From contig CANGYR010000007.1 of the NCBI GenBank assembly GCA_947458275.1, positions 62,001 to 126,000 of the forward strand: a stretch of 64,000 nucleotides of DNA, read 5' to 3'. Shown here in pieces: positions 43,114-62,971 of this stretch (positions are counted from its first letter, which is position 1; each line of letters begins with the position of its first letter). This DNA comes from Chitinophagaceae bacterium (GTDB lineage Bacteria > Bacteroidota > Bacteroidia > Chitinophagales > Chitinophagaceae). A program made the translations under genes and the position numbers. The notes beneath the pieces are model-generated. The model was not told the origin of the DNA and did not search any database. It saw only the letters and a program-made list of their open reading frames with translations.

Positions 43114-43455
43114 CTAATACATCAGCGCTCTCTTTGAAGAGTTTCTCCAACCTGCATAACTTTCCCTGTCGACAAAATAAATTTTTAAATCCGCGTACGA
43201 CTCTCTGTCAACGAAATAAATCTTTTTTTTAGCGTAAGATTCACGATCCACAAAAAACCATTTCCCATCGTTATTTCCCGCATAGCTTTCTCTGTCTACC
43301 TTATAGACCAGTAAATCGGCATAGCTTTCACGATCAACTACAAAGACCTTTACATCTGCGTAACTCTCTCTATCTACCGAATATACCTTTTGTGCCTTAA
43401 GTTCGTTTAGGCTTAATAGAATGATTGAGATTAATAATAACTTTTTCATTTTCAC
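43114..43455 (-). CDS. Secreted six-repeat (VDRESYA) protein, DUF6150 / 7(1) septoil-knot-like
   Basis: Signal peptide MKMKKLLLISIILLSLNELKAQ then six VDRESYA units separated by VKVFV/LLVYK/KWFF/KKIYF/LKIYF. Confidence 0.75.
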   Translation of the reverse strand: MKMKKLLLISIILLSLNELKAQKVYSVDRESYADVKVFVVDRESYADLLVYKVDRESYAGNNDGKWFFVDRESYAKKKIYFVDRESYADLKIYFVDRESYAGWRNSSKRALMY

Positions 43456-46146: not shown

Positions 46147-46614
46147 TTACGCTCCCACCTGCACATTTCTCACAAACCCTTCCTCCAGGGAGATGAACGT
46201 TTCTGTTCTTTCAATGCCTTTGATTTTTTGCAGGTCATCGTGAAGAACATTTCTTAATTGTGTGATGTCTTTACAAACGATTTCGATGAACATACTATAG
46301 TTACCAGTGATATAATTCAAACGAACTATTTCGGGAATTTTCATCAACTCTTTGGCTACTACATCGTAGAGCGAGCTTTTTTCAAGATAGATACCCACGA
46401 AGGCGGTAATGTCGTATCCGAGTAATTTCAGATTTACGTTTAGCCGAGTGCCCTTTACGATATTATACTCCTGCAATTTCTTGATGCGCACGTGGATGGT
46501 GCCTCCGCTGACAAAAAGTTTCTTACCCAGTTCGGCATAGGATATCTCTGCATTGTCCATCATGGCATCTATAATCTGAAGATCCAGTTTGTCAAGATTC
46601 AATTTTGCGGGCAT
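46147..46614 (-). CDS. Lrp/AsnC family transcriptional regulator
   Basis: LDKLDLQIIDAMMDNAEISYAELGKKLFVSGGTIHVRIKKL HTH and RAM-type C-terminal domain. Confidence 0.93.
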   Translation of the reverse strand: MPAKLNLDKLDLQIIDAMMDNAEISYAELGKKLFVSGGTIHVRIKKLQEYNIVKGTRLNVNLKLLGYDITAFVGIYLEKSSLYDVVAKELMKIPEIVRLNYITGNYSMFIEIVCKDITQLRNVLHDDLQKIKGIERTETFISLEEGFVRNVQVGA

Positions 46615-46722: not shown

Positions 46723-46730
46723 TAGTTTTG
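46723..46730 (+). promoter_or_regulatory. TAnnTTTG-type -7 element upstream of tRNA-like RNA
   Basis: TAGTTTTG, about 44 bp before the cloverleaf; no clear -33 box. Confidence 0.4.
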
Positions 46731-46773: not shown

Positions 46774-46945
46774 TGTGGGGTGATGAAATTTTTGGCAGAC
46801 ATGCCCTCTTGTCTCGGGGGTGGGGGTTACAGGATAAATATAGCATAGAGCCGCTTGTGCAGCAATGCATTTGCGACCAGGGTCGACCACTGAACTTTGT
46901 GCTACAACTAACTGCCCCGTGGAGGTTCGACCCCTCCCCCTACAG
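46774..46945 (+). ncRNA. tRNA-like non-coding RNA with a 100-nt variable-region insertion (anticodon-position GUC)
   Basis: Acceptor TGTGGGG(46774-46780)/CCCTACA(46938-46944) with one G-U; T8; D arm ATG-AAATTTTTGGCAGA-CAT; anticodon stem CCCTC/GGGGG, loop TTGTCTC; T arm GGAGG-TTCGACC-CCTCC; G73. Insert 46821-46920 forms its own helices. Confidence 0.65.
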
Positions 46946-46966
46946 CGATACTTTTTTCATAAGAGT

Positions 46967-46995
46967 CCTTGCAGCGTGAGTTGTGAGGGTTTTTT
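46967..46995 (+). terminator. Intrinsic terminator downstream of tRNA-like RNA
   Basis: CCTTGCAGC-GTGA-GTTGTGAGG (some G-U pairs, GNRA loop) followed by GTTTTTT. Confidence 0.6.
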
Positions 46996-47400: not shown

Positions 47401-50400
47401 TTACTGAATAACTACTTTTTCTGTTTGTTTGATCTCATTGTTTGAATAAACTACAAGAATATATTCACCACCACTGAGACGTTTCTTGCCTTTCAACTCC
47501 AGCGAGTAGGATGATGTCCCTCCGGCATGTTGTAACACATTGCTGTATACTCTTTGTCCTGATACTGTTGTCAATACTACCTGGTATCTGCCGGACTGCT
47601 GGTCTTGCAATTGTAGATTAATTTTTCCATTTGCAATAACATTAGGATACACCCGAATCTGCGCATTTCCCAACCATTGTGCCTTAACCACGCTGCTGTA
47701 TGTGTAACTTCCGCTCACATCATTGCTGCGGATACGATAGTAATTCCAGCCGGTTAATGGTTGGTTATCCATTATTGCATAATCACGCAGACCGGAAGTA
47801 TTTACCGCTGCAACACTGTTCACTTTAGCAAAAGACACGCCGTCCGCACTTCTCTCCACATCAAAATCTTTCACTCCGCTCACATTCGCTGTCTGCCAGC
47901 TTACGGCTATGCCATCGGCTTTTTTCTGTGCAGCTACTTTGGTGAAGCGTACAGGTAATGTAACAGCATTTTTAAATACTAGGATAAATCTGTCTGAACT
48001 GATACCCATTCCTGCATTGTCTATAGAGAAATTATAGTCTGTAGTAGCACCGCTCATATCAATTGGAGTAGATTTTTTGGTCAGACGATCTATCAATACC
48101 GCTGACTCTATTTTCGCATCCCAATCTGTTGTATTGATTCTTAACGTATAACTACGAACACCCAGATTCCAGAATGAGAAGTAAACCGTATCCGTTGTGG
48201 TAGGTATTGGGCGACTTTCAATACTTAAGTATCGATTATCACGTAAAATACTCAGATTCTCAGCAAACGCATTTAGCTTGGCTACATCAAAAGTCTCATC
48301 GGATGCCTTATCATAATAATCATTCAATCTCACTTTAACCCCATCGAGTAATAGACTGCCGGCGGCACCATCATGAAGATTCACATTGATTTTTGTTATC
48401 GCACCTGTAAGGCCTCCTGTAGGATACGTTCTTAAAGCATAGCCATTAGAGCTAACCTTATTGCTTTCTTTAATGGTAATAGATCCGCCGCCACTCTTTT
48501 CAACAAAGAAGGCCTGGCCGGATTGTACTTTGAGGTAATCCAATGGCGATCCAGGGCCTCCGGTCATATCATAAGAAGACGATCCATCCCAACCTATTGA
48601 ACGATAACCACCAAATGTACCCATTGTAGCATCCCATATCCAGAAATTACGTTCAATCTTAGCGCTATTGCCGGAATTGAGGTACATCGAATTTAAATCA
48701 ATTGCTGATGCATACGGATTACCCACAACCTCAAATGGATTGCTCACTGTAACTGTCCTATCTCCAGTTTTAAGTGTTCCGGTTGGACGTAAAGTAGTAT
48801 TTGCATTACCAAAGAAAGTAACAGTTCGATCTCCTCTTACAAACAACATGTATCCTTGTTTGTCAGGAGCTGCTGTTGTGGTTGGCGTGTTGGTAGCAGA
48901 ATACCAGTTATCATTTTCATAGAATCTTATAGAAGATGTTGCAACGTTACTCAATCCGCTAAACCAATCGAAGCCCGCTGCTGCTGCTGCCGTACCATTA
49001 GGATATGTAGCTCCGTGTCCTGTAATCAACGTTCCAGATCCTGCACTTTCTCCTGTGGGTGCATTGGCATTGGCATTAGCTCCTGCCCACGCCTGACGGA
49101 TAGTTGGTCCTGTTACAGGTATCGTTAGCAATCTCCAAGCGCGTCTGCCGCTACCTATATAACGCTCTACTGTAACACTGGTAGCACCATTTAAAGTACC
49201 GGTAATCTGACCAATGGCAGCAGTACCTGCAGCAGTTGATTTTAGTGTAACAGGAAGGCCACCGAAATTGGCGGTACCGGCAACAGTGAAGGTAATGCCC
49301 GGGTTGATTGTAAGAGATCCGGCAGCTACTGTGAACGTTTTACCCGATCCAACAGTAAAATCATCATCTATTGTCGTTGGGTGTGATATTGTTATGTTGT
49401 TGGTACTAACCGGTGGCTGAACCGCCTGAACCCATCCGTTACCATTGTTATACTCCCAGCCTGAACCGCTGCTAAAGTTTGCTGATGATGCTCTGGTACG
49501 GAAGCTGGCAAGGCCTATGTCTTCCCACTTCGCGTATAGGGTAACATTAGATGCGGTGCTCATCGTATAACTTGCCTGGTTTGCATAGGCTACTGAACCG
49601 CCGCTGCTTGTTGCCCATCCAGTAAAAACATAACTGGTACGGGTAAACGAATTGGTTGTTAGGTTGGCTGACGTGCCAAATGTAATTGATTGAACTGACA
49701 TAGATCCGCCATCAGAACCATTACCATTAAAAGTAATTGTATAGTCATTTGTCGTCCACTGAGCATACAAAGTTACATTTGAAGTAATGGGGAATGTAGA
49801 GGCCACAGCGCGCGAAGTACCGCTGCCATCTGCTGCCGTATTCCAGCCGGCAAATTCAGAGCCTGCTTTAGCTATGGTGCCTTCATTCTTAACAGTTACT
49901 GTGGTGTTATAGTTATAGGGGCTGCTTGCGTCAGATTGAGAACCCGAACCGCCGTTGGCATTATAAGTAACTGTAAAAGTATTTATTGTCCATTGAGCAT
50001 ACAATGTTACATCTGAAGTAATAGAGAAGGTTGAGGCTACAGCTCGAGATGTACCGCTGCCATTCTGAGCTGTATTCCATCCGGCAAAGGTATAACCTGT
50101 TTTAGCTATGGTGCCCGCATTCTTCACTGTTACCGTTTGATTATAAGTATAATTTGTTGCGTCACTTTGACTGCCTGTACCCGTATTCTCATCATAGGTA
50201 ACGTTGTAATTAATAGCCGTCCATTTAGCATACAAGATTACATTAGCTGTACCCATATTGAAGGTCTCTCCGGGATTATAGCTTGTTCCACTACCATCTG
50301 CAGCTGTATTCCATCCGTTAAATATATAGCCGACTCTTGCAACTGTTCCCGCATTTTTTACTGTTACTGTTGAATCGTAATCGTATGGGCTATCGGAATC

Positions 50401-53400
50401 TGACTGAGAGCCACTGCCGCCGTTAGCATTATAAGTTACCGTGTAGCTGTTAATCACCCACTTCGCAAATAGTGTGGTGTTTTCAGCAGGAATGGTAAAG
50501 GACGCGCTGCCAGTTGCTGCATAATTATTACCGGATCCGTCAGCTTCTGTATTCCAGCCCGAGAAGGTATAACCAGTCCTTGCCAAATTGCCTGTATTTG
50601 CACTTACGGTTTGAGATGAGCCAAAACTGTATGTGCCACCGGCTGGAGCCGTTCCTGTGCTATTGAGATTTCCACTGTAGTTCAACGTATAAGAACCGGT
50701 AGACCACTGAGCATACAAAGTGATATTATTTGCCGGCATATTAAAGTTGTCTCCTGTACCATAGTTATTACCACTACCGTTTGCTGCTGTATTCCAGCCG
50801 GCAAAGGTGTTTCCTGTTTTAGCAAGGGTATTCGGTCCGCTGACGGTTACTGTTGTGTTATAATCATAGTCAGCCTGATTGGGCGCAGATCCACCTGTAC
50901 TTCCGTTGCCATTATAAGTAATTCTATAGCTGTTGATTGACCATTCCGCATATAGAATTACGTTAGATGCATCCATAGTAAAGGACCCCGTTCCTGCGGG
51001 AAGATTTGTACCACCACCATTAGCTTGTGTATTCCAACCCAAAAATGTGTACCCGGCTCTAACTAAACTTCCTGAGTTAGACGACACAGTAACATTTGTA
51101 TTATAATTATGATTGGTTGTGGATGGCTCTGTTCCTCCTGTTGCGCCATTACCGTCATATGTAACAGAATAGCTGTTGATCGTCCACTTAGCATAAAGCG
51201 TAACATTGGAAGAAATAACAAAGGTTTCTGTTGCATTGTATGTTGAACCGGTTCCATTCGCTGCAGTATTCCAGCCGGCAAATGTGTAACCGATTCTGGC
51301 AATAGTTCCGGAATCCTTTACTGTTACTGTTGAGTTGTAGTTATAAGGACTGCTGGCATCTGGCTGAGATCCTGTGCCACCGTTATTATTGTATGTAACC
51401 GTGTAGGTGTTGATAGTCCACTGTGCATATAATGTAACATCAGAAGCGATGGAAAATGTTTCTCCCGCCTCTCGAGATGTACCACTTCCGTTAGCTGCAG
51501 TATTCCATCCGGCAAAGGTATATCCGGTTCTTATCATTGAGCCCGCACTCTTAACTGTTACCGTTGAATTATAGTTGTAAGGACTGCTGCCATCTGATTG
51601 AGAGCCGGTGCCCCCGTTATTGTCGTAAGATAGGGTATACGTATTAATTGTCCATTGAGCATAAAGGGTAACATCAGATGTTCCAATAGCAAAAGTTTGG
51701 TTGGCAGTATAGGTTGTCCCGCTGCCGTTAGCTGCCGTATTCCATCCGGCAAAAGTATAGCCGGTTTTGACTATTGTACTTTGATTTTTAACCGTTACTG
51801 TTTGATTATAAATATAATTTGTAGCGTCTGACTGACTTCCCGAAGTAGCTCCGTTATCATCATAAAAAACATTGTATGGTATGGCAGTCCATTTTGCGTA
51901 AAGGGTTACATCGGCTGCGCCCAGGTTAAACGTTTCTCCGGCAGTATAGGTTGTACCGCTGCCATTCGCTGCCGTATTCCATCCGGCAAAAGTATAGCCG
52001 GTTTTGGTGAGCGATCCTGAATTAGAAGCCGCCGTAATCTCAGTATTGTAATTGTAGTTAGTTGAAAGCTGTGGTATATCCCCTCCTGTATTTCCGTTGC
52101 CATTGTAAGCAAAGGTGTATTGATTAATTGTCCATTTAGCAAATAACGTGGTGTTTTCAGCAGGTATGATAAAGCTGGCACTTCCTGTCGCGGCATAATC
52201 AGTACCAGACCCGTCAGATTCTGTATTCCAGCCAGCGAAGGTATAACCAGTCCTTGCCAAATTGCCTGTATTTGCACTTACGGTTTGAGATGAGCCAAAA
52301 CTGTATGTGCCACCGGCTGGAGCCGTTCCTGTGCTATTGGAATTTCCACTGTAGTTCAACGTATAAGAACCGGTAGACCACTGAGCATACAAAGTGATAT
52401 TATTTGCCGGCATATTAAAGTTGTCTCCTGTACCATAGCTGGAACCGCTGCCATTCGCAGCAGTATTCCATCCGGCAAATGTGTTTCCTGTTTTAGCAAG
52501 GGAACCTGGTCCGCTCACAGTAACAGATGCATTGTAATTATAGTTCGCTGATGCGGGAGCCGATCCACTTGAATTGCCATTTCCATTATAAGTGATGGTG
52601 TAGCTATTGATGTTCCATTTCGCATATAATATTACATTGCCAGCACCCATTGTAAAGGTTCCCGTACCTGCAGTATAATTGGTGCCGGTTCCATCTTCGG
52701 CTGTATTCCATCCACCAAAAGTATATCCGGTTCTAACAAGAGTTCCAGAGTTGGCTGATACGGTAACCGTTGAATTGTAATTATGATTAGTGGAAGACGG
52801 CTCTGTTCCTCCTGTTGCGCTATTACCATCATACGTTACTGAATAACTATTGATTGTCCATTGTGCATATATGGTAACATCTGAGGTAAATGTAAAATTT
52901 TCGGCAACCAAATAAGGAGTACCACTTCCGTTGGCTGCGGTGTTCCATCCGGCAAATGAATAGCCAGTTTTCGCGAGCGAGCCGGAATCAGATATCGCTA
53001 CTGAAGTATTATAGTTCTGCGTAACAGCAGTTGGGGCAGAACCTCCTGTGTTTGTATTGCCATTATACGTTAGTGTGTAAGAGTTGATTGTCCACTGTGC
53101 ATATAATGTTACGTTTGATGTTACAGAGAAAGTAGAGGATACCGCACGTGCTGTGCCACTTCCATTAGCAGCTGTGTTCCAACCGGCAAATGTATATCCG
53201 GTTTTAGTCATAGTTCCTGCATTCTTCACCGTCACGGTTGCGTTGTACTCATAATCTGTGGCATCTGTTTGACTGCCGCTTCCTGTATTTTCATCGTAGG
53301 TTACTGTGTAGGTTTGTATTTCACCGATTGCATAATAGCCAACACCCTGTCCGGCTGGAGAGGTGATTGCTCCGGATGCAACCGTCTGCGGTGTTCCAAC

Positions 53401-56400
53401 AGACACATAAGTTCCGGCTTGATTATTGTTTGACTTGGCAATCACATGTGTGCCATTTGTCATGTCTGTTTCAGTAATGGCAAGAGTGGCTGAAGTGAAT
53501 AATGCGGTTGTAATCTCCTCAATTCTCCAGTTTCTTGCACTGAATAAAGTAGTTTTAATGGTAGTATTGTTTCCCGTTGTTGCACCAGTTGATGCAAATG
53601 TTGCGCGCACAACCGGGTTTCCTGGAGCCACTACTGATTGAAGTGTTACAGGACGATAGAAAGAAGACCCCCCGATAGGATATGTATAACTGGTTGCATT
53701 AGCAAGGGTTCTGTCCAGTGGTCCATTTACATAACTGGATGTACTACCACCGGAAATTGCACCCGTTGCTGAACTATTGATGGTTAATTTGTTTGTTGAG
53801 GTAGTGGTAAGAATACCTGAAGTTAGCGTCAGTGTACCAGCAACCGTTGTGGCTGAACCAAGGGTAACACCACCTGTACCGTTCATGGTAAGGTTATTCA
53901 CATTACCACTGAATACAGAAGCGGGCAAGGTAAGCGGGTCTGTATTGGTAAAGGTAATAGTTGAACCGGTGCTGGCATCAATCGTACCACTGGTACGCGC
54001 TATGGAGCTGCCCGAGTATGTCAATGTGTTTGTGCCTACTGTAAACGTACCATTCGTTAATGTTAATATACCGGTTACTTTTAACGCATTACCCAAAGTA
54101 ACCGTGCCTGTGGATGTACGATTGATTGTCAGGTTATTTAATACATTGGTAGTGCCGGGTGTGGTTTGATCAAACCTAACAGTACCCAATGCCCCTGTGC
54201 CTAATATAGTAAGCGAAGAACTACTGCTGCCTTTGATAAAACCGGAGCCTGTTATTCCTGATCCCACAGAGCCTTTTCCAAGAGTAAGTGTGAAATCGTT
54301 TAGATTCAGGGTGTCTGTTGTGTTGGTAAGTGTGATGGCATTACCTCCATTAGGACCTTCCACCAATAAATTGCAAAGCATGCGGATAGACCCTGAAGCT
54401 TTATCCGATACGATATAATCAATATTAAATGTGCCGGATCCGCTTACATCCTGGGTGCCTGTTCCTGTAAAGAATACAGCCCGGTTATTGGAGTTGAATG
54501 TTGCATTATCCACCAAACTGCCCGTGATTTCAAGATCACCACCACCAACTGTTGATAAAGTGACCGTGCCAGAGCTGTTGGTAAAATTAGCGCAACGCAA
54601 ACGTCCGTTGGCATCTCCCATAGAAAGTGTGCCACTATTGGTAACATTACCGGTTACCACCACCACTTGTGTGATTGGCGCTGTATTGATTTTAGCTGCG
54701 ATGGTAAGCGTACCGCTATTGCTTATATTGCCTCCAATGTACAACACAGCATCTTCTTTCGCACCCGTTGCGAAAGTAGCTCCGGATGCAATGGTAAGAG
54801 AACCATTGATAGCTCTGTTTGTGGTCGCATCACCGTTTAGTAATGTATAGAAGCCGGAGTTAATAGTTACATTATTTGGATAACCTACGGTCGATCCTAT
54901 TGTGCCTATCCCGCTGGCGCTCCACTCCGTTGAGCGGTTATAATTTGAATTATAGAGTAGGGTTGAATTAGCAGAATATCTTGGAGCGGCTGAAACAAAG
55001 CCACCATTAATTCTCAGTGTACCATCTATTGTCGGAATAGTAGTTAATGTTACCGCACCTGTATTGATGGTGAAATTATTGAAGGTAATAGCAGCACTAC
55101 CATCCACTGTTGCCGCGCCGGCAAAATTGACAGTTCCAGCTCCACGCGTAAATGTTGAATTATTGGTAAGCGTACCAGATGCTGCAATTGTTAATGTACC
55201 ACCTGCTGTCATCACAACGGATCCATTGTTAGTAACGGTAGTAGCCGTAAGCGCACCACTGGCAACGAAGGTGAGTGATTTTGTGCTGTTAATGGTTACA
55301 GATGAAGGCGCATTTGTTACAGTGCCATCCACAGTTACAGCGTGATCAATCGTCACCGTAGCTCCGGCAGTAGGCAAGGCGTTGCCTGCCCATGTACCGG
55401 TAGTATTCCAGTCACCTGTGCCTGCGGTAATATGACCCAGGAAGTTAAAGGCACTGCTGGCACTTGAACTCGCGGTCGGGTTGTTCACCACCACGGTAGT
55501 ACCACTAACGGCAGCGCCGGTATTGGCTATAGTAGCGGTAATAGACGTACTACTTTGAGCGGTTATTGTTGCACTTACGCTGTTTATACTTACAGTAGCA
55601 TTTGAAGCAAAACTGGTTCCGTTAATTGTAATCGATTGTCCGGAGTAACCTGAAGCCGCGCTGAGTGATGCAATAGACGGACTAAGCAAAGTACTCATCA
55701 CAAAGAAGTTGGAATTTCCTAATGAAATAGCACCAATTGCATTGGCCGTACCATTGATAGTTGTTCCGCTGGCGGATCCTCCGATAGATGCGTATGCGCC
55801 GCTCTGAGCGGTACTTCTTCCTATTACATTCAGAGAACCTAAAGCCGATTGGCGGGTGATATCTGCTCCACCATTTGAAAAGTTTCCTGATACAACATTC
55901 AGTTGCCAGTACTCGGATGTGCTTATTGATGAAAGAACATTTGGATTATCAATAGATCCACCGGCACTACCCGAATTAGCAGTTACCTGCAGTACCGGAC
56001 CTGTTGCTCCGGTAGTAGGATTATTCAAAGTAAATGGAAGATACGTTGAACCTGATCCTACTGGGAATGAGAAGACATTAGATGCTCCAGTCAAATTTGG
56101 AGCCAATGTTCTTCTCAACGGACCATTAACAAATGTTGTTGTAGATCCGCCTGTGACGGCATTAGTTGCTGTATTGGTTACGGTTAATGTATTTGATCCC
56201 GTGGTTAGGTTACCAGAGTTCAGATTTAAAGTGTTCGTAACAATGACTGGGGTTGAAGCAGCCAAAGAAACTCCTCCACTTGTGTTACTGATTTTAAGGA
56301 TGGCAAAGTTGTTAGATGAACCTTCCGTACCAAAAGATCCGGTGATGGTTTGCGCAGCGCCTCCCAAAAATTCCACCATTCTTGATGAAGGCGTGAAAGT

Positions 56401-59400
56401 ACCATTATTAGTAAAATTACTGCCCACATACAGATCCCCTCCGGAAGCACTTGAAAGTGTCAAACCACTGGATGCACTGATAGTGACATTTCCGTTTGCA
56501 CGTCTATACGATCCACTGGATCCAAATGACAATGTAGTATTTACTCCATTACCAATGGTTACATTTCTGGGCACACCGACTCCTGAGGCAGCATTGGCTG
56601 TCCACTCAAATCCGGCGGTATAAGTTCCTCCTGAATTATAAATCAAGGTAGAAGAAGATCCATAAGTAGGTAATTTAATATCAGCCGTTGAGCCGCCGGA
56701 CATCGTACCATTTCCACGCACATAACCATTGGAGTTAATCTGCAACGTACCATCTACTGTGAATGTGCCATATTTTACCAGAATACCTCTTTGAAGAATG
56801 AGCGTACCTCCGCTATTAACATTCACCGATACGAATTTTTTCTCATCATCATCTGTCGTTGTAGCATCACCCGTAAAAGTGGTAGTAGAACCACTTGCAA
56901 TGGCTAATGTCAAATCATTGCCAAATTCATTATCTGTTCCATAAACTCCACCTCCAGATGTAGTGCTGACAGTAAATGTTTGTGTGCTTCCGGCCATTGT
57001 AAGTGTATTTCCTCCGGTAGATTGTAAACCTCCGCTAGTAATTGTTACGTTACCGGTCAGACTTCTTGCTCCCGCAAGTTGTATCCAAGACCCATTAGTA
57101 AGCGTCAGATTAGCCGGACCACTTGTGGAAGGCCATTCCAGCGCCTGAGTTCTTCTGCTTGCAAAATTACCACCATGGTTATACTGTAAAGTAGAAGATG
57201 AACCGAATAAAGGACTTCTCGTTGCAATAGAAGAACCGCTATTAACTTGTAGCGTTCCATTGATAGTAGTACCTGTACTTGGTGTGAGTGCTCCATTAAT
57301 AGTTACGTTGTTGAATGCAACTGTACCGGTTACAGAACCTGTACCTGCAAAGGAGAAAGTACCGGCATCTGTACCAGAGGCCAGCGCACCTGATGTTTGA
57401 GCAACTAATGTATTAATGGTAACTGTATTTGCACTACCTACTGTAAGTGTACCGGATGTAAGGTTTAGGGTACCCATCGTGGTATTACCGCCCAGCGTTA
57501 CACCGCCTGATCCGTTAACGGTAAATGTAGATACTGTACCGCTGAATAAAGATGCAGGTAATGATAAAGATGACCCCGTATTTGTAAATGCAACAACAGC
57601 CGATGCGTTGCTTGCATCAATATTTCCATTGGTTCTTGAAATAGATGAACCGGAGTAAGTGAGTGTATTGGCTCCGGTAGTAAGTGTACCGTTGATAAGT
57701 GTAAGATTACCGCTGATGGTTATTGCGCTACCAAGAGTTGCAGTACCTGAACTTGTCCTGTTGAGTGTAAAGTCTGCAATTCTGTTGGTGGTACCACCAG
57801 CAGTAGCATCCAAAAACAAAGTACCCAATGCACCAGTTCCGGTGATGTTCAAATTGGAACTTGCAGAACCTGTAATGTTGTTTGTAATACTCATAGAAGC
57901 CACCGTACCGGCTAGGTTCAATGTGTTAGAACCGATACTTAATCTACCTGCAGTAAATGTTAGTGCACCATTAATAGTAGGTGAACCGGTCAAGCTAAAT
58001 CCACTTCCGTTTAAAGTCAGGTTTTGTAAAGTAGCACCTGAAATGGTTTTTGTTGTTCCTGTCATTGTGATACTTCCCGCACCAGTATGTGTAGCTGTAC
58101 CGGCGATGTTACCTCCTACAGACAAAATATTTCCGGCATCGGCAAGTGTACCAGCTGTAAGTGTAAGGTTTCCTGTTAATGATCTATTGGCCGATCCGAG
58201 CATAGTTACCGTACTACCACTGTTGTCAACGATCAGATTAGCAGGTCCACTACTAGCAGGCCATTCAATAGCGTTGGTAGTTCTTGTTCCAACATTTTTA
58301 TATTCCAACGTACTGGTTGATCCATAAGTTGGAGCTGTGGATGCAAGTGTAGCGGTACCTTGAAGTGAAAGCGTACCACTAACCGAATAAGCACCATCCG
58401 GCGTTTTTGTATTTGTACCAGTTCCGGATAAAGTTAAGTTTGTATATGCAGCTGCTCTTATAGGCTGCGCACCGGACCTTGAATACTCTACCGTTGCACT
58501 AGTACCATTTAGAGTAATGGTATTTGTTCCATCTGTATCCAGCGTAAATGGTGTAGTTCCTGTTAATCTCAGAGTACCAGTTTGAGCTCCGGATAGCAAC
58601 GAAACAGTCGCGACAGTAACAGGAGATACTACAGGATGTACAGTGGTAATATCCGTAGCAGTAACTGTACCGCTTTGGATATTAAAAGTGGGATTGATAT
58701 TACTAGTAGACTTCCTTGCTGTTAATGTTATTGTTCCTGAACAAGTAAGCGCATTAATTGAACTGGTTAGTGTGGCCGTTCTTGTAGCAGCTGCGCTTGT
58801 AGCTGACGTTGTTCCAATTCCTACGGTTGCACACGTTAAAGTTCCGCCTCCTGAAATTGTACCCGCATTATTTTGAGAAGCTGACTGTTCTACTTCCACA
58901 GATGATGAAACGGATAATTGTTGTCCGGCATCAACAGATAAAACTCCTCCTGTGCCCGTAAATGACACTTTTTTACAAGAAGCACTTGCAGTCACAGTAA
59001 CCTCATGTGTTGACGCAATAACCACATTATCAAAACTTGTCGGCACAATACCTCCCACCCACGTACCGGCACTGTTCCAGAACCCGGAAGCATTGGAAGT
59101 AATTGTTGTAGAATTCACTGGTGTTATCTCTCCTGAAGAACCGCTTGACACAAACTCTGCGCCAGTATTTGCGTAGCCGCTGAATGTGAATGCATCTAAT
59201 TGAGTTTGTCCTAACCCCGTGTTATTTGTAAAGAAAATTCTACCGGCAGTTCCCGCATTTCCTGCAGTCGTTGCCCAATTACTTACTGTAATTGTTTTTG
59301 ATCCGGTCCATGATTCTAATGCACTTGATGCAAATGTAATTGAATGACTAGTTGATGCAGCTAATGCAATGGTTGAATTTTCCTGAACCAATAATGTTGA

Positions 59401-62400
59401 AGAACTAGTGAATGTTCTGGTTGCTGTTATTCCTGTAGTTCCCAATCTACCTCCGTTTAATACTATTTTTGAAGCGAAAGTGGCATTAGCTGAAGGATTC
59501 AATCTGAGTTCACCGCTGGTGATGGTGGTGTTACCTGTATATGTGTTAGCAGAGTTTGTGAGAATGAGTGCAGCTGTAGAGAGGGTGCTATTAACAATAA
59601 TTCCTCCCGTACCGGAGATAACTCCGGAAAGAGTTAGTCCACTACCGGAAGCGGCAGTACTCGTAAAAGTAAGGTTGCCGTTTAGAGTTATGTTGGAAGA
59701 AATAGTTGGACTTGAGGTGCTTTGATTTTCAATTGTACCACCACCAGCAGCAACACTGGTCAGTGACGAGGACAATGTTCCTCCAACGCCGGTCCAATTA
59801 AATTTACCTGATGTCGTTGCTGTGCCCAAACTAAATGATCTACTTCCTAATCTTACAGAACTAGAAGTAGTCAAAGCTCCTTGAGCTATAACCCAACTTC
59901 CAGTATTGAACGAAGCTGTATTATCTGAAAATGCAATAGTAAGATTGCCGATACCAACTTTAGTAAATATAAATCCACCTGAGTTTGTTATTTGATTAGA
60001 TGTCACAGCGCTTGTACCAATAGTCAAGTCTCCACCACCACCAACACTGACATCTGAGCCGAGTGTTAATGTACCACTCCAAGTAGCACTACCTGTTGAG
60101 TTTATGAATGCACCTACGGAGGAAATTCCCGTTCCATTGATGGTAAGTGCTTCTTGCGTGGCTAAAGAATAACCATTTAAATCAAGCACCCCTCCCGAGT
60201 TTACTGTGGTTGCACCTCCAGTAGTTCCCAAAGGCGTATTTGAACCCGAACCTGCTGCTCCTAATTGTAAAGTACCTGCACTGATGGTTGTGGCGCCTGT
60301 ATAGGTACTCGCGCCCGATAAAGTAGCAGTTCCGTTTCCGTCCTTTGTAATTGTACCAGTTCCGATATTGGTTGTACCGGAAATGGCAATATTACCTGCA
60401 CCGCCAAGGGTCAGTGCAATATTCGTTGAAGCAATTGATGCTGCATTACTCAGCGTAAGAGTGCCTGCATCAGAATTAATTCTAGTAGCATTGGTGGAAA
60501 GTGTAATAGCACCGCCCCATGTATTATTACCGGAAATATTACGCAAAGAACCACCGCTTGAAATACCCGTATTATTAATCGTTAATGTTTCCGCACCAAC
60601 AGTAATCCCCCCTTGCAATTCTATTGCAGCACCGGAAGAAACCACCACACCACCGGCTGTAGTACCCGTACCCTGAGCGTTTTGAACATTGAGAATACCC
60701 GCTGTTACGTTTGTTTGACCAGTGTAAGTATTGGTTCCGCTGGCAACCATTTTACCAGCACCAGCTTTATCGAGTGTAAACGCACCACTTATCACGCCAC
60801 TCACCGTTAAGTCAGTAGCCGCATTTGTATCATCAGCAACCGTTATGGTTCTGTTGGTACCCAATGCTACCGGACAAGAAATAGTTGCGCCATTTGCTCC
60901 GAAGCCTGAGTTGACTGTAATATTTCCACCAAGTGTAAGCGTGCCGGATGATCCACTTATAGTAGAACCAGTTGCACCGGTTTCAACAACAACAGAAGAT
61001 GGAGAGCCGATATTGAAAGTTGATAAAGCTAAAGTAGTACCGGCACGAACTGTAAGTGTGCTATTCACAGTTTTATTGCTGTTCAATGTAACATTGGTGC
61101 CGCTATTTTGGATAGTTACGTTGGGCACATTTGTTGTTGGCCATTCAATACTTGATGCAGTATAATTACCTCCATTATTATAAACAAGTGTGCCACTAGC
61201 TCCGTAAGTAGCTGCAGCACTTCCGGAATTCATATAGCCATTAGCATTAATTTGAAGAGTACCATTAACAGTAAAGGTTCCGTAACGACAAAACAAACCT
61301 CTACTCAGGCCTAATGTAGCACCTGAATTTACATTTACGGTAATGAATTTTTTATCAGCATCTGAAGTTGTAGTTGCATTTCCATCTAATGTGATAATTC
61401 CGCCGGAGACAGTTAGCGTCAAATCATTACCTGAACCGGCATCTGTTCCCGTTACCGTACCTCCGTTCGTATTATTAATTTGTAAGGTTCCGGTACCATC
61501 AGCGCCACTCATAGTAAGCGTCTGTGCTCCTGAAGTTCTAAAGTCACCATTGTTAACTACAAGGTTTCTCCTAACTGTAATTCCGGTGCTTAAAGTAGTT
61601 GTTGTACTTCCACCATTTACGGTATAATCATATAAAGTTGTCGGTTGAGTATTATTATAACCAAAAGTTGCTCTGGTTTCAAAAGACTGGTAGTTAGAAC
61701 TGAAAGGGTTTGTTGTTCCTGAGTTTGTCGTATTAACAACTGTTTGATAAAAATAAAAACGAGGAGATGCGGCATTACCACTTGGATTACCTGTTGCTGG
61801 TCTTACATCATAAATACCCGTAGAATAAGCACAAAATCCTACCCAGTTAAATGCAGTTGGTCTACCAGGTAAAAGTGAACCTGTAGTCCAGGGAAATCTA
61901 ATTGTACGTGTAGGACTTCCACTTGTACCCACATTTCCTGATGAAATATCTACCTCTGTATTCCATCCACCAGATCCATTTCTTGTTGAATAACCTAAAT
62001 AAGTTGGAGTAATAACCAATCGTATATCTGCTCTGAAGGGTAATGTTCCCGTAACACCATAATCGGTTGTTGTCGTAAGGTTACCATTGCTGTTGGTCCC
62101 TCCGGAAACACCCCCATTTGCAGGTGATAAGGGATCAATATCAAGATATACAAAACACGCCTCACCTGCAGCACCTCCGGTTTTTCCAATGTATAGATAA
62201 GTATTATCCCAGCCCATAAACCATGGAGTTGAGTTACCGTACGAACCAAAAGTAGCATCTGTTGGTGTACTTGTTAATGTTGGGGCGGATGATAAAAACT
62301 GAGCACTTGCAAATCTTGAAAAGAAACTAAAAATAACGAGAACTAAAATAAATTTCACATTTAATTTCTTCAAAGTATTTGCCTTAAAACCAGCATTCAC

Positions 62401-62430
62401 AATCATTTCAGAGCGTGTAAAAATATTCAT
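47401..62430 (-). CDS. Giant (~5000 aa) T9SS-secreted surface protein: autotransporter-type beta-strand repeats, TIG/IPT-like domain, 16 InlB/Listeria-Bacteroides repeats, T9SS type A sorting domain
   Basis: Single ORF to 62622; signal-like KKLNVKFILVLVIFSFFSRFASAQ suggests ATG at 62430 (MNIFTRSE). Repeats and C-term IRVYPNVIANGKINLQL...LSGGEYILVVYSNNEIKQTEKVVIQ are clear. Confidence 0.93.
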   Translation of the reverse strand: MNIFTRSEMIVNAGFKANTLKKLNVKFILVLVIFSFFSRFASAQFLSSAPTLTSTPTDATFGSYGNSTPWFMGWDNTYLYIGKTGGAAGEACFVYLDIDPLSPANGGVSGGTNSNGNLTTTTDYGVTGTLPFRADIRLVITPTYLGYSTRNGSGGWNTEVDISSGNVGTSGSPTRTIRFPWTTGSLLPGRPTAFNWVGFCAYSTGIYDVRPATGNPSGNAASPRFYFYQTVVNTTNSGTTNPFSSNYQSFETRATFGYNNTQPTTLYDYTVNGGSTTTTLSTGITVRRNLVVNNGDFRTSGAQTLTMSGADGTGTLQINNTNGGTVTGTDAGSGNDLTLTVSGGIITLDGNATTTSDADKKFITVNVNSGATLGLSRGLFCRYGTFTVNGTLQINANGYMNSGSAAATYGASGTLVYNNGGNYTASSIEWPTTNVPNVTIQNSGTNVTLNSNKTVNSTLTVRAGTTLALSTFNIGSPSSVVVETGATGSTISGSSGTLTLGGNITVNSGFGANGATISCPVALGTNRTITVADDTNAATDLTVSGVISGAFTLDKAGAGKMVASGTNTYTGQTNVTAGILNVQNAQGTGTTAGGVVVSSGAAIELQGGITVGAETLTINNTGISSGGSLRNISGNNTWGGAITLSTNATRINSDAGTLTLSNAASIASTNIALTLGGAGNIAISGTTNIGTGTITKDGNGTATLSGASTYTGATTISAGTLQLGAAGSGSNTPLGTTGGATTVNSGGVLDLNGYSLATQEALTINGTGISSVGAFINSTGSATWSGTLTLGSDVSVGGGGDLTIGTSAVTSNQITNSGGFIFTKVGIGNLTIAFSDNTASFNTGSWVIAQGALTTSSSVRLGSRSFSLGTATTSGKFNWTGVGGTLSSSLTSVAAGGGTIENQSTSSPTISSNITLNGNLTFTSTAASGSGLTLSGVISGTGGIIVNSTLSTAALILTNSANTYTGNTTITSGELRLNPSANATFASKIVLNGGRLGTTGITATRTFTSSSTLLVQENSTIALAASTSHSITFASSALESWTGSKTITVSNWATTAGNAGTAGRIFFTNNTGLGQTQLDAFTFSGYANTGAEFVSSGSSGEITPVNSTTITSNASGFWNSAGTWVGGIVPTSFDNVVIASTHEVTVTASASCKKVSFTGTGGVLSVDAGQQLSVSSSVEVEQSASQNNAGTISGGGTLTCATVGIGTTSATSAAATRTATLTSSINALTCSGTITLTARKSTSNINPTFNIQSGTVTATDITTVHPVVSPVTVATVSLLSGAQTGTLRLTGTTPFTLDTDGTNTITLNGTSATVEYSRSGAQPIRAAAYTNLTLSGTGTNTKTPDGAYSVSGTLSLQGTATLASTAPTYGSTSTLEYKNVGTRTTNAIEWPASSGPANLIVDNSGSTVTMLGSANRSLTGNLTLTAGTLADAGNILSVGGNIAGTATHTGAGSITMTGTTKTISGATLQNLTLNGSGFSLTGSPTINGALTFTAGRLSIGSNTLNLAGTVASMSITNNITGSASSNLNITGTGALGTLFLDATAGGTTNRIADFTLNRTSSGTATLGSAITISGNLTLINGTLTTGANTLTYSGSSISRTNGNIDASNASAVVAFTNTGSSLSLPASLFSGTVSTFTVNGSGGVTLGGNTTMGTLNLTSGTLTVGSANTVTINTLVAQTSGALASGTDAGTFSFAGTGSVTGTVAFNNVTINGALTPSTGTTINGTLQVNSGSSIATRSPLFGSSSTLQYNHGGNFASRRTQALEWPSTSGPANLTLTNGSWIQLAGARSLTGNVTITSGGLQSTGGNTLTMAGSTQTFTVSTTSGGGVYGTDNEFGNDLTLAIASGSTTTFTGDATTTDDDEKKFVSVNVNSGGTLILQRGILVKYGTFTVDGTLQINSNGYVRGNGTMSGGSTADIKLPTYGSSSTLIYNSGGTYTAGFEWTANAASGVGVPRNVTIGNGVNTTLSFGSSGSYRRANGNVTISASSGLTLSSASGGDLYVGSNFTNNGTFTPSSRMVEFLGGAAQTITGSFGTEGSSNNFAILKISNTSGGVSLAASTPVIVTNTLNLNSGNLTTGSNTLTVTNTATNAVTGGSTTTFVNGPLRRTLAPNLTGASNVFSFPVGSGSTYLPFTLNNPTTGATGPVLQVTANSGSAGGSIDNPNVLSSISTSEYWQLNVVSGNFSNGGADITRQSALGSLNVIGRSTAQSGAYASIGGSASGTTINGTANAIGAISLGNSNFFVMSTLLSPSIASLSAASGYSGQSITINGTSFASNATVSINSVSATITAQSSTSITATIANTGAAVSGTTVVVNNPTASSSASSAFNFLGHITAGTGDWNTTGTWAGNALPTAGATVTIDHAVTVDGTVTNAPSSVTINSTKSLTFVASGALTATTVTNNGSVVMTAGGTLTIAASGTLTNNSTFTRGAGTVNFAGAATVDGSAAITFNNFTINTGAVTLTTIPTIDGTLRINGGFVSAAPRYSANSTLLYNSNYNRSTEWSASGIGTIGSTVGYPNNVTINSGFYTLLNGDATTNRAINGSLTIASGATFATGAKEDAVLYIGGNISNSGTLTIAAKINTAPITQVVVVTGNVTNSGTLSMGDANGRLRCANFTNSSGTVTLSTVGGGDLEITGSLVDNATFNSNNRAVFFTGTGTQDVSGSGTFNIDYIVSDKASGSIRMLCNLLVEGPNGGNAITLTNTTDTLNLNDFTLTLGKGSVGSGITGSGFIKGSSSSSLTILGTGALGTVRFDQTTPGTTNVLNNLTINRTSTGTVTLGNALKVTGILTLTNGTFTVGTNTLTYSGSSIARTSGTIDASTGSTITFTNTDPLTLPASVFSGNVNNLTMNGTGGVTLGSATTVAGTLTLTSGILTTTSTNKLTINSSATGAISGGSTSSYVNGPLDRTLANATSYTYPIGGSSFYRPVTLQSVVAPGNPVVRATFASTGATTGNNTTIKTTLFSARNWRIEEITTALFTSATLAITETDMTNGTHVIAKSNNNQAGTYVSVGTPQTVASGAITSPAGQGVGYYAIGEIQTYTVTYDENTGSGSQTDATDYEYNATVTVKNAGTMTKTGYTFAGWNTAANGSGTARAVSSTFSVTSNVTLYAQWTINSYTLTYNGNTNTGGSAPTAVTQNYNTSVAISDSGSLAKTGYSFAGWNTAANGSGTPYLVAENFTFTSDVTIYAQWTINSYSVTYDGNSATGGTEPSSTNHNYNSTVTVSANSGTLVRTGYTFGGWNTAEDGTGTNYTAGTGTFTMGAGNVILYAKWNINSYTITYNGNGNSSGSAPASANYNYNASVTVSGPGSLAKTGNTFAGWNTAANGSGSSYGTGDNFNMPANNITLYAQWSTGSYTLNYSGNSNSTGTAPAGGTYSFGSSQTVSANTGNLARTGYTFAGWNTESDGSGTDYAATGSASFIIPAENTTLFAKWTINQYTFAYNGNGNTGGDIPQLSTNYNYNTEITAASNSGSLTKTGYTFAGWNTAANGSGTTYTAGETFNLGAADVTLYAKWTAIPYNVFYDDNGATSGSQSDATNYIYNQTVTVKNQSTIVKTGYTFAGWNTAANGSGTTYTANQTFAIGTSDVTLYAQWTINTYTLSYDNNGGTGSQSDGSSPYNYNSTVTVKSAGSMIRTGYTFAGWNTAANGSGTSREAGETFSIASDVTLYAQWTINTYTVTYNNNGGTGSQPDASSPYNYNSTVTVKDSGTIARIGYTFAGWNTAANGTGSTYNATETFVISSNVTLYAKWTINSYSVTYDGNGATGGTEPSTTNHNYNTNVTVSSNSGSLVRAGYTFLGWNTQANGGGTNLPAGTGSFTMDASNVILYAEWSINSYRITYNGNGSTGGSAPNQADYDYNTTVTVSGPNTLAKTGNTFAGWNTAANGSGNNYGTGDNFNMPANNITLYAQWSTGSYTLNYSGNLNSTGTAPAGGTYSFGSSQTVSANTGNLARTGYTFSGWNTEADGSGNNYAATGSASFTIPAENTTLFAKWVINSYTVTYNANGGSGSQSDSDSPYDYDSTVTVKNAGTVARVGYIFNGWNTAADGSGTSYNPGETFNMGTANVILYAKWTAINYNVTYDENTGTGSQSDATNYTYNQTVTVKNAGTIAKTGYTFAGWNTAQNGSGTSRAVASTFSITSDVTLYAQWTINTFTVTYNANGGSGSQSDASSPYNYNTTVTVKNEGTIAKAGSEFAGWNTAADGSGTSRAVASTFPITSNVTLYAQWTTNDYTITFNGNGSDGGSMSVQSITFGTSANLTTNSFTRTSYVFTGWATSSGGSVAYANQASYTMSTASNVTLYAKWEDIGLASFRTRASSANFSSGSGWEYNNGNGWVQAVQPPVSTNNITISHPTTIDDDFTVGSGKTFTVAAGSLTINPGITFTVAGTANFGGLPVTLKSTAAGTAAIGQITGTLNGATSVTVERYIGSGRRAWRLLTIPVTGPTIRQAWAGANANANAPTGESAGSGTLITGHGATYPNGTAAAAAGFDWFSGLSNVATSSIRFYENDNWYSATNTPTTTAAPDKQGYMLFVRGDRTVTFFGNANTTLRPTGTLKTGDRTVTVSNPFEVVGNPYASAIDLNSMYLNSGNSAKIERNFWIWDATMGTFGGYRSIGWDGSSSYDMTGGPGSPLDYLKVQSGQAFFVEKSGGGSITIKESNKVSSNGYALRTYPTGGLTGAITKINVNLHDGAAGSLLLDGVKVRLNDYYDKASDETFDVAKLNAFAENLSILRDNRYLSIESRPIPTTTDTVYFSFWNLGVRSYTLRINTTDWDAKIESAVLIDRLTKKSTPIDMSGATTDYNFSIDNAGMGISSDRFILVFKNAVTLPVRFTKVAAQKKADGIAVSWQTANVSGVKDFDVERSADGVSFAKVNSVAAVNTSGLRDYAIMDNQPLTGWNYYRIRSNDVSGSYTYSSVVKAQWLGNAQIRVYPNVIANGKINLQLQDQQSGRYQVVLTTVSGQRVYSNVLQHAGGTSSYSLELKGKKRLSGGEYILVVYSNNEIKQTEKVVIQ
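50567..50764. repeat. 198-bp near-identical tract, copy A (repeat 12 region)
   Basis: Identical to 52241-52438 except two adjacent-region differences (attgagattt vs attggaattt). Confidence 0.88.
52241..52438. repeat. 198-bp near-identical tract, copy B (repeat 5 region)
   Basis: Offset exactly 1674 bp from copy A. Confidence 0.88.
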
Positions 62431-62971
62431 AAAAGATTTTTTATTTTTTTCTGCACAAGAATTTTTAATCGCAAGATTGTTGATAACATTGTTAACAACG
62501 ACACACGAATCGTTTAAAATCTGTCCGAGATTTTGCATAAAACAAGCATGTTTTGATAAAAAATAAATTAATCTGTGATGATTAATTGGGTGTTTTCGGA
62601 AGGATATGTGGTTGAATTCCAACGTTAAATTACAGTTAATTTTGAAAAAAAAAACTTTTTACCACTTTTTTTTAAAAATATGTGTTAATTGTTTAATCTT
62701 TTCGAGTGGTTTTGACAAAAGATGTGTTGAAAAATGGATTAAGAATATCATAAATATTAGAAACCATATCAATGCATCGCTACGGAGTGATTCATTTAAA
62801 CAATATTAAGATTGTATATATGTAATGGTCTAATGAAATTGTTCCAAACAGGTAAAACATAGGCATTTTACCAGAAAATAGTGGAATAATTTGTAATGAA
62901 AATTGGTAAAAGAAGGTGATAAACGCAGAAAATAGACTAAAGCTTATACATCAATAGTGAAAATAACTCAA

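Follow-up and report, generated by a model that had tools for sequence, protein, structure and literature searches.

The locus and its tRNA-like RNA

The window is a stretch of 64,000 nucleotides from a bacterium of the Chitinophagaceae (contig CANGYR010000007.1, positions 62,001 to 126,000 of the forward strand). It contains a conserved non-coding tRNA-like RNA, a classification that is practically certain. The features of the locus, in window positions, are the following:

46147..46614, minus strand: AsnC-type regulator of the Lrp/AsnC family, divergent neighbour; closest NCBIfam model AsnC
46723..46730, plus strand: probable Bacteroidetes -7 promoter box TAGTTTTG (TAnnTTTG), recurring upstream of homologues
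46774..46946, plus strand: tRNA-like RNA, positions 1-74, 173 nt; class-wide family with covariation
46774..46780, plus strand: 5' strand of the acceptor stem, U1 and G2 invariant (U1-A72 and G2-C71 in 105/105 copies)
46783..46802, plus strand: D arm of Leu type, 3-bp stem 46783-46785/46800-46802; stem pairs covary
46804..46820, plus strand: anticodon arm, stem 46804-46808/46816-46820, loop UUGUCUC; identity counts from 105 copies
46811-46813, plus strand: anticodon GUC, followed by U37 (46814) and C38 (46815); residue 37 never A in 105 copies
46821..46920, plus strand: structured variable region, 100 nt; covariation in 27 and 105 copies, family range 35-121 nt
46822..46918, plus strand: base of the variable arm, covarying stems 46822-46825/46915-46918 and 46830-46832/46912-46914
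46833-46838/46908-46911, plus strand: internal loop GAUAAA/CUAA, near-invariant in the family
46841..46904, plus strand: upper stem 46841-46850/46895-46904 with two hairpins, in the 27- and 105-copy alignments
46853-46874 and 46878-46892, plus strand: hairpins of the upper stem, the first variable and the second with a GGUCGACC loop, in both alignments
46921..46937, plus strand: T arm, in both alignments
46938..46946, plus strand: 3' strand of the acceptor stem with G73 (46945; 104/105) and encoded C74 (46946; 105/105)
46967..46995, plus strand: probable intrinsic terminator (CCTTGCA...TGTGAGG + T6), the same element being found behind homologues

Two further features were identified in the window, both on the minus strand: a 113-aa DUF6150 protein with seven near-identical VDRESYA repeats (43114-43455) and an ORF of 5073 aa containing numerous T/G-rich repeats and extended tracts of the GYTFAGWNTAANGSGT repeat (47401-62622), whose product is probably a giant surface protein.

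The layout of the RNA is that of a type II tRNA with a Leu-like D arm, and its acceptor stem is formed by 46774-46780/46938-46944. The complete cloverleaf given in the preliminary description, made from the sequence alone, can be laid out as it was described there, with exactly 100 nt (46821-46920) separating the anticodon and T stems. The Leu-type D arm is supported as well, and its stem pairs covary among homologues. The structured arm proposed for the insert also stands, but the GTTA/TAAC helix included in it is peculiar to the copy of the window; the conserved base is GNNG/CNNC, followed by CAG/CUG and then by the internal loop GAUAAA/CUAA. The full CCA is absent as had been stated, although C74 is encoded in every copy; in the host genome ordinary tRNA genes, too, frequently terminate in C, CC or CCA.

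ARAGORN called no tRNA anywhere in the window. Rfam 15 gave no match in the window at the gathering score, Rfam tRNA not being reported at the locus either, and no match spanning the body of the RNA at E<=10. The folding energy is unremarkable (z -1.3) and notable structure is absent from the opposite strand (z 0.0). Since the folding energy alone is not significant, the proof of the RNA rests on comparison. An alternative obtained with RNAalifold, with a GGCA/UGCC pairing and a shifted anticodon stem, was rejected and the canonical register was kept because pair 30-40 covaries (UG, CG, GC, UA). A tmRNA, which likewise has tRNA-like ends on a longer RNA, was also rejected: the RNA of the window has a full anticodon arm and lacks a tag reading frame, in agreement with the earlier statement that no ssrA-like tag is readable, and neither Rfam nor ARAGORN gives a tmRNA match.

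Conservation, spread and gene neighbourhood

When 60 related genomes were searched with the DNA sequence, most genomes of the same genus gave long matches (E<1e-30). Aligned with MAFFT, 27 copies have 95.5% of their cells paired, and 25 of the 49 pairs are changed on both sides; 0 of 500 shuffles equalled the observed pairing, and slid controls were 42-54% paired. The alignment of 105 copies, fitted to a covariance model and drawn from 84 loci of the class Bacteroidia, has 96.9% of its cells paired and 41 of the 49 pairs changed on both sides. Among homologues the tRNA-like core is unchanging, and the hairpins of the variable arm swap their sequence yet keep their pairs. Homologues with covarying helices, which the preliminary description suggested looking for, were found class-wide with covariation in core and insert, and a chance fold is ruled out by this homology and covariation.

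With the covariance model the RNA was identified in 172 of 299 genomes of the order of the window (matches at E<1e-20 plus one cut-off copy), and it is also spread through the class Bacteroidia. Counted copies are the stronger matches and the partial copies at contig ends that were checked by eye (G018, G240, G277 and G327); the weaker matches in the raw tallies, mostly ordinary tRNA-Leu genes of about 83-90 nt that score below 58 bits, were left out. These ordinary tRNA-Leu genes are the next-best matches of the model and resemble the RNA in D-arm layout and long variable arm, whereas the GUC anticodon, G73, U1-A72 and a self-folding arm of 35-121 nt set the RNA apart. Hosts among the matches listed in a pattern scan are Chitinophaga, Niabella, Terrimonas, Flavihumibacter, Dyadobacter, Spirosoma, Cyclobacterium, Algoriphagus, Echinicola, Belliella, Fulvivirga, Neolewinella and Portibacter; cultured carriers include Chitinophaga pinensis, Dyadobacter fermentans and Spirosoma.

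In the family the RNA measures 108-197 nt and its variable region 35-121 nt. The copies frequently stand in tandem, in arrays of 2-5; loci L194, L195, L196 and L152 have 3-4 in a row, and some genomes give as many as 5 matches. Owing to this arrangement and to a frequent position at contig ends (e.g. G240, G277 and G327), draft genomes undercount the RNA. Residue 34 is U or C, not G, in L169:8149-8259, L184:10071-10186 and L187:4936-5043, which are possibly decaying or re-specialised members of the family.

In two relatives a second copy of the RNA's 3' end and terminator lies downstream, at about 13 kb in G012 (L063:2015-15320) and at 2.4 kb in G030 (L076); in G012, immediately inside the repeat, are genes for a tyrosine integrase and an AbiEii-type toxin. 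From the repeated 3' end with an integrase, the RNA gene seems to be an integration site, like tRNA genes. Such use in two relatives and an insert of about 100 nt interrupting a tRNA could be taken as signs of a decayed or intron-split tRNA, or of a mobile-element relic; this is hardly credible given the class-wide covariation in insert and core, the retained identity positions and the lack of any intron family match in Rfam. The intron-bearing tRNA offered in the preliminary description is likewise rejected, the insert being conserved with covariation across families, variable in length (35-121 nt) and without an intron family match.

The RNA gene looks free-standing, because both the upstream TAnnTTTG box (63 of 105 copies, against 8 expected after shuffling) and a downstream T-run (79 of 105) recur. 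A cis-regulatory leader was discarded, as there is no conserved downstream gene and the RNA has a probable promoter and terminator of its own. Besides the AsnC-type regulator, no conserved neighbour was identified class-wide in the 84 loci. The regulator is divergent in 57 of them, from 21 families, 36 being outside the family of the window; where present, its orientation is always opposite and its distance about 50-270 nt. The NCBIfam AsnC model matches the protein of the window much better than Lrp and other models do, though its score does not reach the equivalog cut-off. The relative AsnC of E. coli responds to asparagine, and transcription of the RNA is likely to be under AsnC control.

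Identity elements and co-occurrence with GatCAB

Aspartate identity comprises G73, G34, U35, C36 and C38, G2-C71 being a minor element (reviewed in PMC9976931). Asp-tRNA-Asn owes its amidation to U1-A72; in tRNA-Asp the reaction is blocked by U20a and G1-C72, the latter strictly conserved in bacterial tRNA-Asp (PMC9976931); U1-A72 is given as the GatCAB amidation determinant in PMC4206432 also. The aspartate elements, already recognised in the copy of the window, are kept at 102-105 of 105 across the family (G34 in 102, U35 in 105, C36 in 105, C38 in 103, G73 in 104 and G2-C71 in 105). U1-A72 is present in 105 of 105 copies, so that the G1-C72 of tRNA-Asp is missing throughout the family, and the fixation of pairs 1-72 and 2-71 is specific because the other acceptor pairs vary. 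The host tRNA-Asp genes that were readable have G1-C72 and the loop CUGUCAC, and host tRNA-Asn has U1-A72. Judged by its sequence, the RNA is very probably a substrate of AspRS and quite probably one of GatCAB.

The decoding features are relaxed. Position 33 is U in 93 copies, G in 10 and C in 2, U33 thus being lost in 12 of 105, and position 37, whose residue had rightly been called unusual, is U in 95, C in 6, G in 4 and A in none, a purine being mostly missing there. The RNA is probably not a decoding tRNA; with the Asp and GatCAB positions kept, it would retain the signals for AspRS and GatCAB and drop the needs of the ribosome. The earlier idea of a tRNA with an extreme variable arm holds for the shape and fails for the decoding role (U33 changed in 12/105, A37 in none). 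An odd but real tRNA-Asp/Asn isoacceptor, decoding GAC/GAU or placing Asn at Asp codons, would fit the GUC anticodon, the complete cloverleaf and U33 in 93 of 105 copies. It is very improbable, since A37 is found in 0/105 copies, U33 is lost in 12, the arm reaches 121 nt, normal tRNA-Asp genes are present in the host and reading Asp codons as Asn would be deleterious.

The co-occurrence sample comprises 64 genomes picked solely by RNA status, where GatCAB was scored through gatB alone. In this sample asnS was above the cut-off in 63 genomes and glnS in 41, and gatB was identified in all 41 genomes with the RNA. The 23 genomes without glnS all carry gatB, RNA present or not, as expected because GatCAB is then needed for tRNA-Gln. 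Among the 41 genomes with glnS, gatB is found in 27/27 with the RNA and in 0/14 without it (0/13 when G361, in which AsnRS was not found, is removed), a split of probability 1/C(41,14) = 2.8e-11 with relatedness ignored.

At the level of the order, 167 genomes have RNA and gatB, 5 the RNA only, 57 gatB only and 70 neither, gatB being thus present in 167 of the 172 with the RNA. The five with the RNA only are four incomplete assemblies and G249. The 57 with gatB only comprise 41 without glnS above the cut-off, one without any match and 15 others, of which G240, G277 and G327 carry an RNA cut by a contig end. In the family of the window the corrected count is 70 with both, 15 with neither and 0 discordant. 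Both states occur inside three genera (g1, g28 and g51), which implies at least three separate joint changes, and the pattern is read as enzyme and substrate being lost together. U1-A72 together with the co-occurrence of GatCAB, and the AsnC neighbour, are the strongest clues, and both were missed in the preliminary description.

A possible carrier for asparagine formation

The best explanation, with a probability of about 0.6, is an RNA without a decoding role that AspRS would charge with aspartate and GatCAB would then amidate, for the supply or sensing of asparagine under the control of AsnC. Transcription of the free-standing gene would be adjusted by the divergent regulator, and the transcript would be processed and completed with CCA as for a tRNA. 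The ordinary AspRS would load it with aspartate through the GUC anticodon, C38, G73 and G2-C71, and U1-A72, instead of the G1-C72 of tRNA-Asp, would make the Asp-RNA a substrate of GatCAB, giving Asn-RNA. Since the RNA would not decode properly, its charged form would take no part in reading codons; free Asn would be released, or handed to an acceptor, or the RNA would report the Asp/Asn state. Through the long arm and its conserved GAUAAA/CUAA loop the RNA may be excluded from EF-Tu or the ribosome, or a partner may be bound. The main purpose of the RNA is more likely asparagine supply than sensing or donation.

A sensor or regulator, charged in small amounts, would signal asparagine or nitrogen status through its charging state or long arm, for example by titrating AspRS or GatCAB or by binding a protein, instead of supplying Asn. 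In agreement with this, the arm is large and conserved, its internal loop hardly varies, AsnC is the neighbour and most genomes have AsnB-type genes, and the mimic with regulatory function of the preliminary description is possible. However, the strict association with gatB suggests that the RNA is a substrate in catalysis, and its occurrence in tandem arrays of 2-5 suggests that quantity matters, which leaves a sensor rather unlikely. Less likely still is a non-ribosomal donor, from which Asn (or Asp) would pass to a lipid, peptide or cell-wall precursor by an aminoacyl-tRNA-dependent transferase. Non-translating charged tRNAs with donor roles are established, but a transferase gene is never a conserved neighbour here, and AsnC as sole partner points to asparagine homeostasis.

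In the 64 genomes asnA was identified in 4 and asnB-type matches in most, AsnB-type genes being found in most of those with the RNA; many of these matches, of 600-650 aa, may be other amidotransferases instead. Four genomes with the RNA (G036, G257, G309 and G331) contain neither AsnA nor AsnB above the cut-off while AsnRS, GlnRS and GatB are present, and there the AspRS/GatCAB route is the sole recognised one to Asn. Alperstein et al. placed Bacteroidetes among the genera with AsnRS, GlnRS and GatCAB and without Asn synthetase, and proposed that in such genera Asn is made on tRNA-Asn (PMC4206432).

Several observations count against an amidated RNA carrier. Roughly one locus in three has no AsnC gene, and the family has not retained G10, which is characteristic of Asp tRNAs. 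In 12 genomes of the order, mostly fragmented, gatB and glnS are present and the RNA was not detected, and in G249 the RNA is present without detected gatB. Asparagine supply through the RNA may be redundant beside AsnB, and a relaxed AspRS, if that of the host were one, could use tRNA-Asn. The host AspRS found is of the bacterial type with a GAD domain.

The same two enzymes predicted here, AspRS and GatCAB, act on tRNA-Asn in the tRNA-dependent Asn synthesis of Deinococcus, Thermus and Bdellovibrio, with U1-A72 as a common amidation determinant and GatCAB beside AsnRS and GlnRS as the same genomic puzzle (PMC4206432). The carrier of that route is the decoding tRNA-Asn and a non-discriminating AspRS is required, whereas the Bacteroidia RNA is separate and bears the Asp anticodon, so that an ordinary AspRS would suffice. 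The tRNA-Other of Bacillus cereus is also tRNA-like outside translation and a possible integration site, with a Trp anticodon, poor lysylation and a presence in few bacilli (PMC3399842, where pseudo-tRNAs are reviewed); the Bacteroidia RNA differs in its class-wide spread, its long arm and its fixed Asp/GatCAB identity. Both the synthesis of Asn on a carrier tRNA and tRNA-like RNAs outside translation, such as tRNA-Other (PMC3399842), are already known. Their combination in a dedicated RNA family of mixed Asp/Asn identity is absent from the open-access literature searched, where no description of such an RNA was found, an earlier one being possible in subscription papers and preprints, which lie outside that search.

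Many bacteria have GatCAB beside AsnRS and GlnRS, which has been put down to a relaxed AspRS that uses tRNA-Asn as substrate; otherwise GatCAB has been called vestigial (PMC4206432). The RNA family provides an alternative and testable answer for Bacteroidia, where GatCAB would serve a separate RNA. The chances are about even that much of this class has dedicated non-decoding carriers on which GatCAB converts Asp to Asn with AsnC feedback, which would explain the retained GatCAB. If so, amino acid synthesis on an RNA carrier can be uncoupled from the genetic code, a new class of RNA, unrecognised by Rfam and devoted to the synthesis or sensing of an amino acid, would be present in cultured organisms, and predictions of asparagine auxotrophy for Bacteroidia would need revising.
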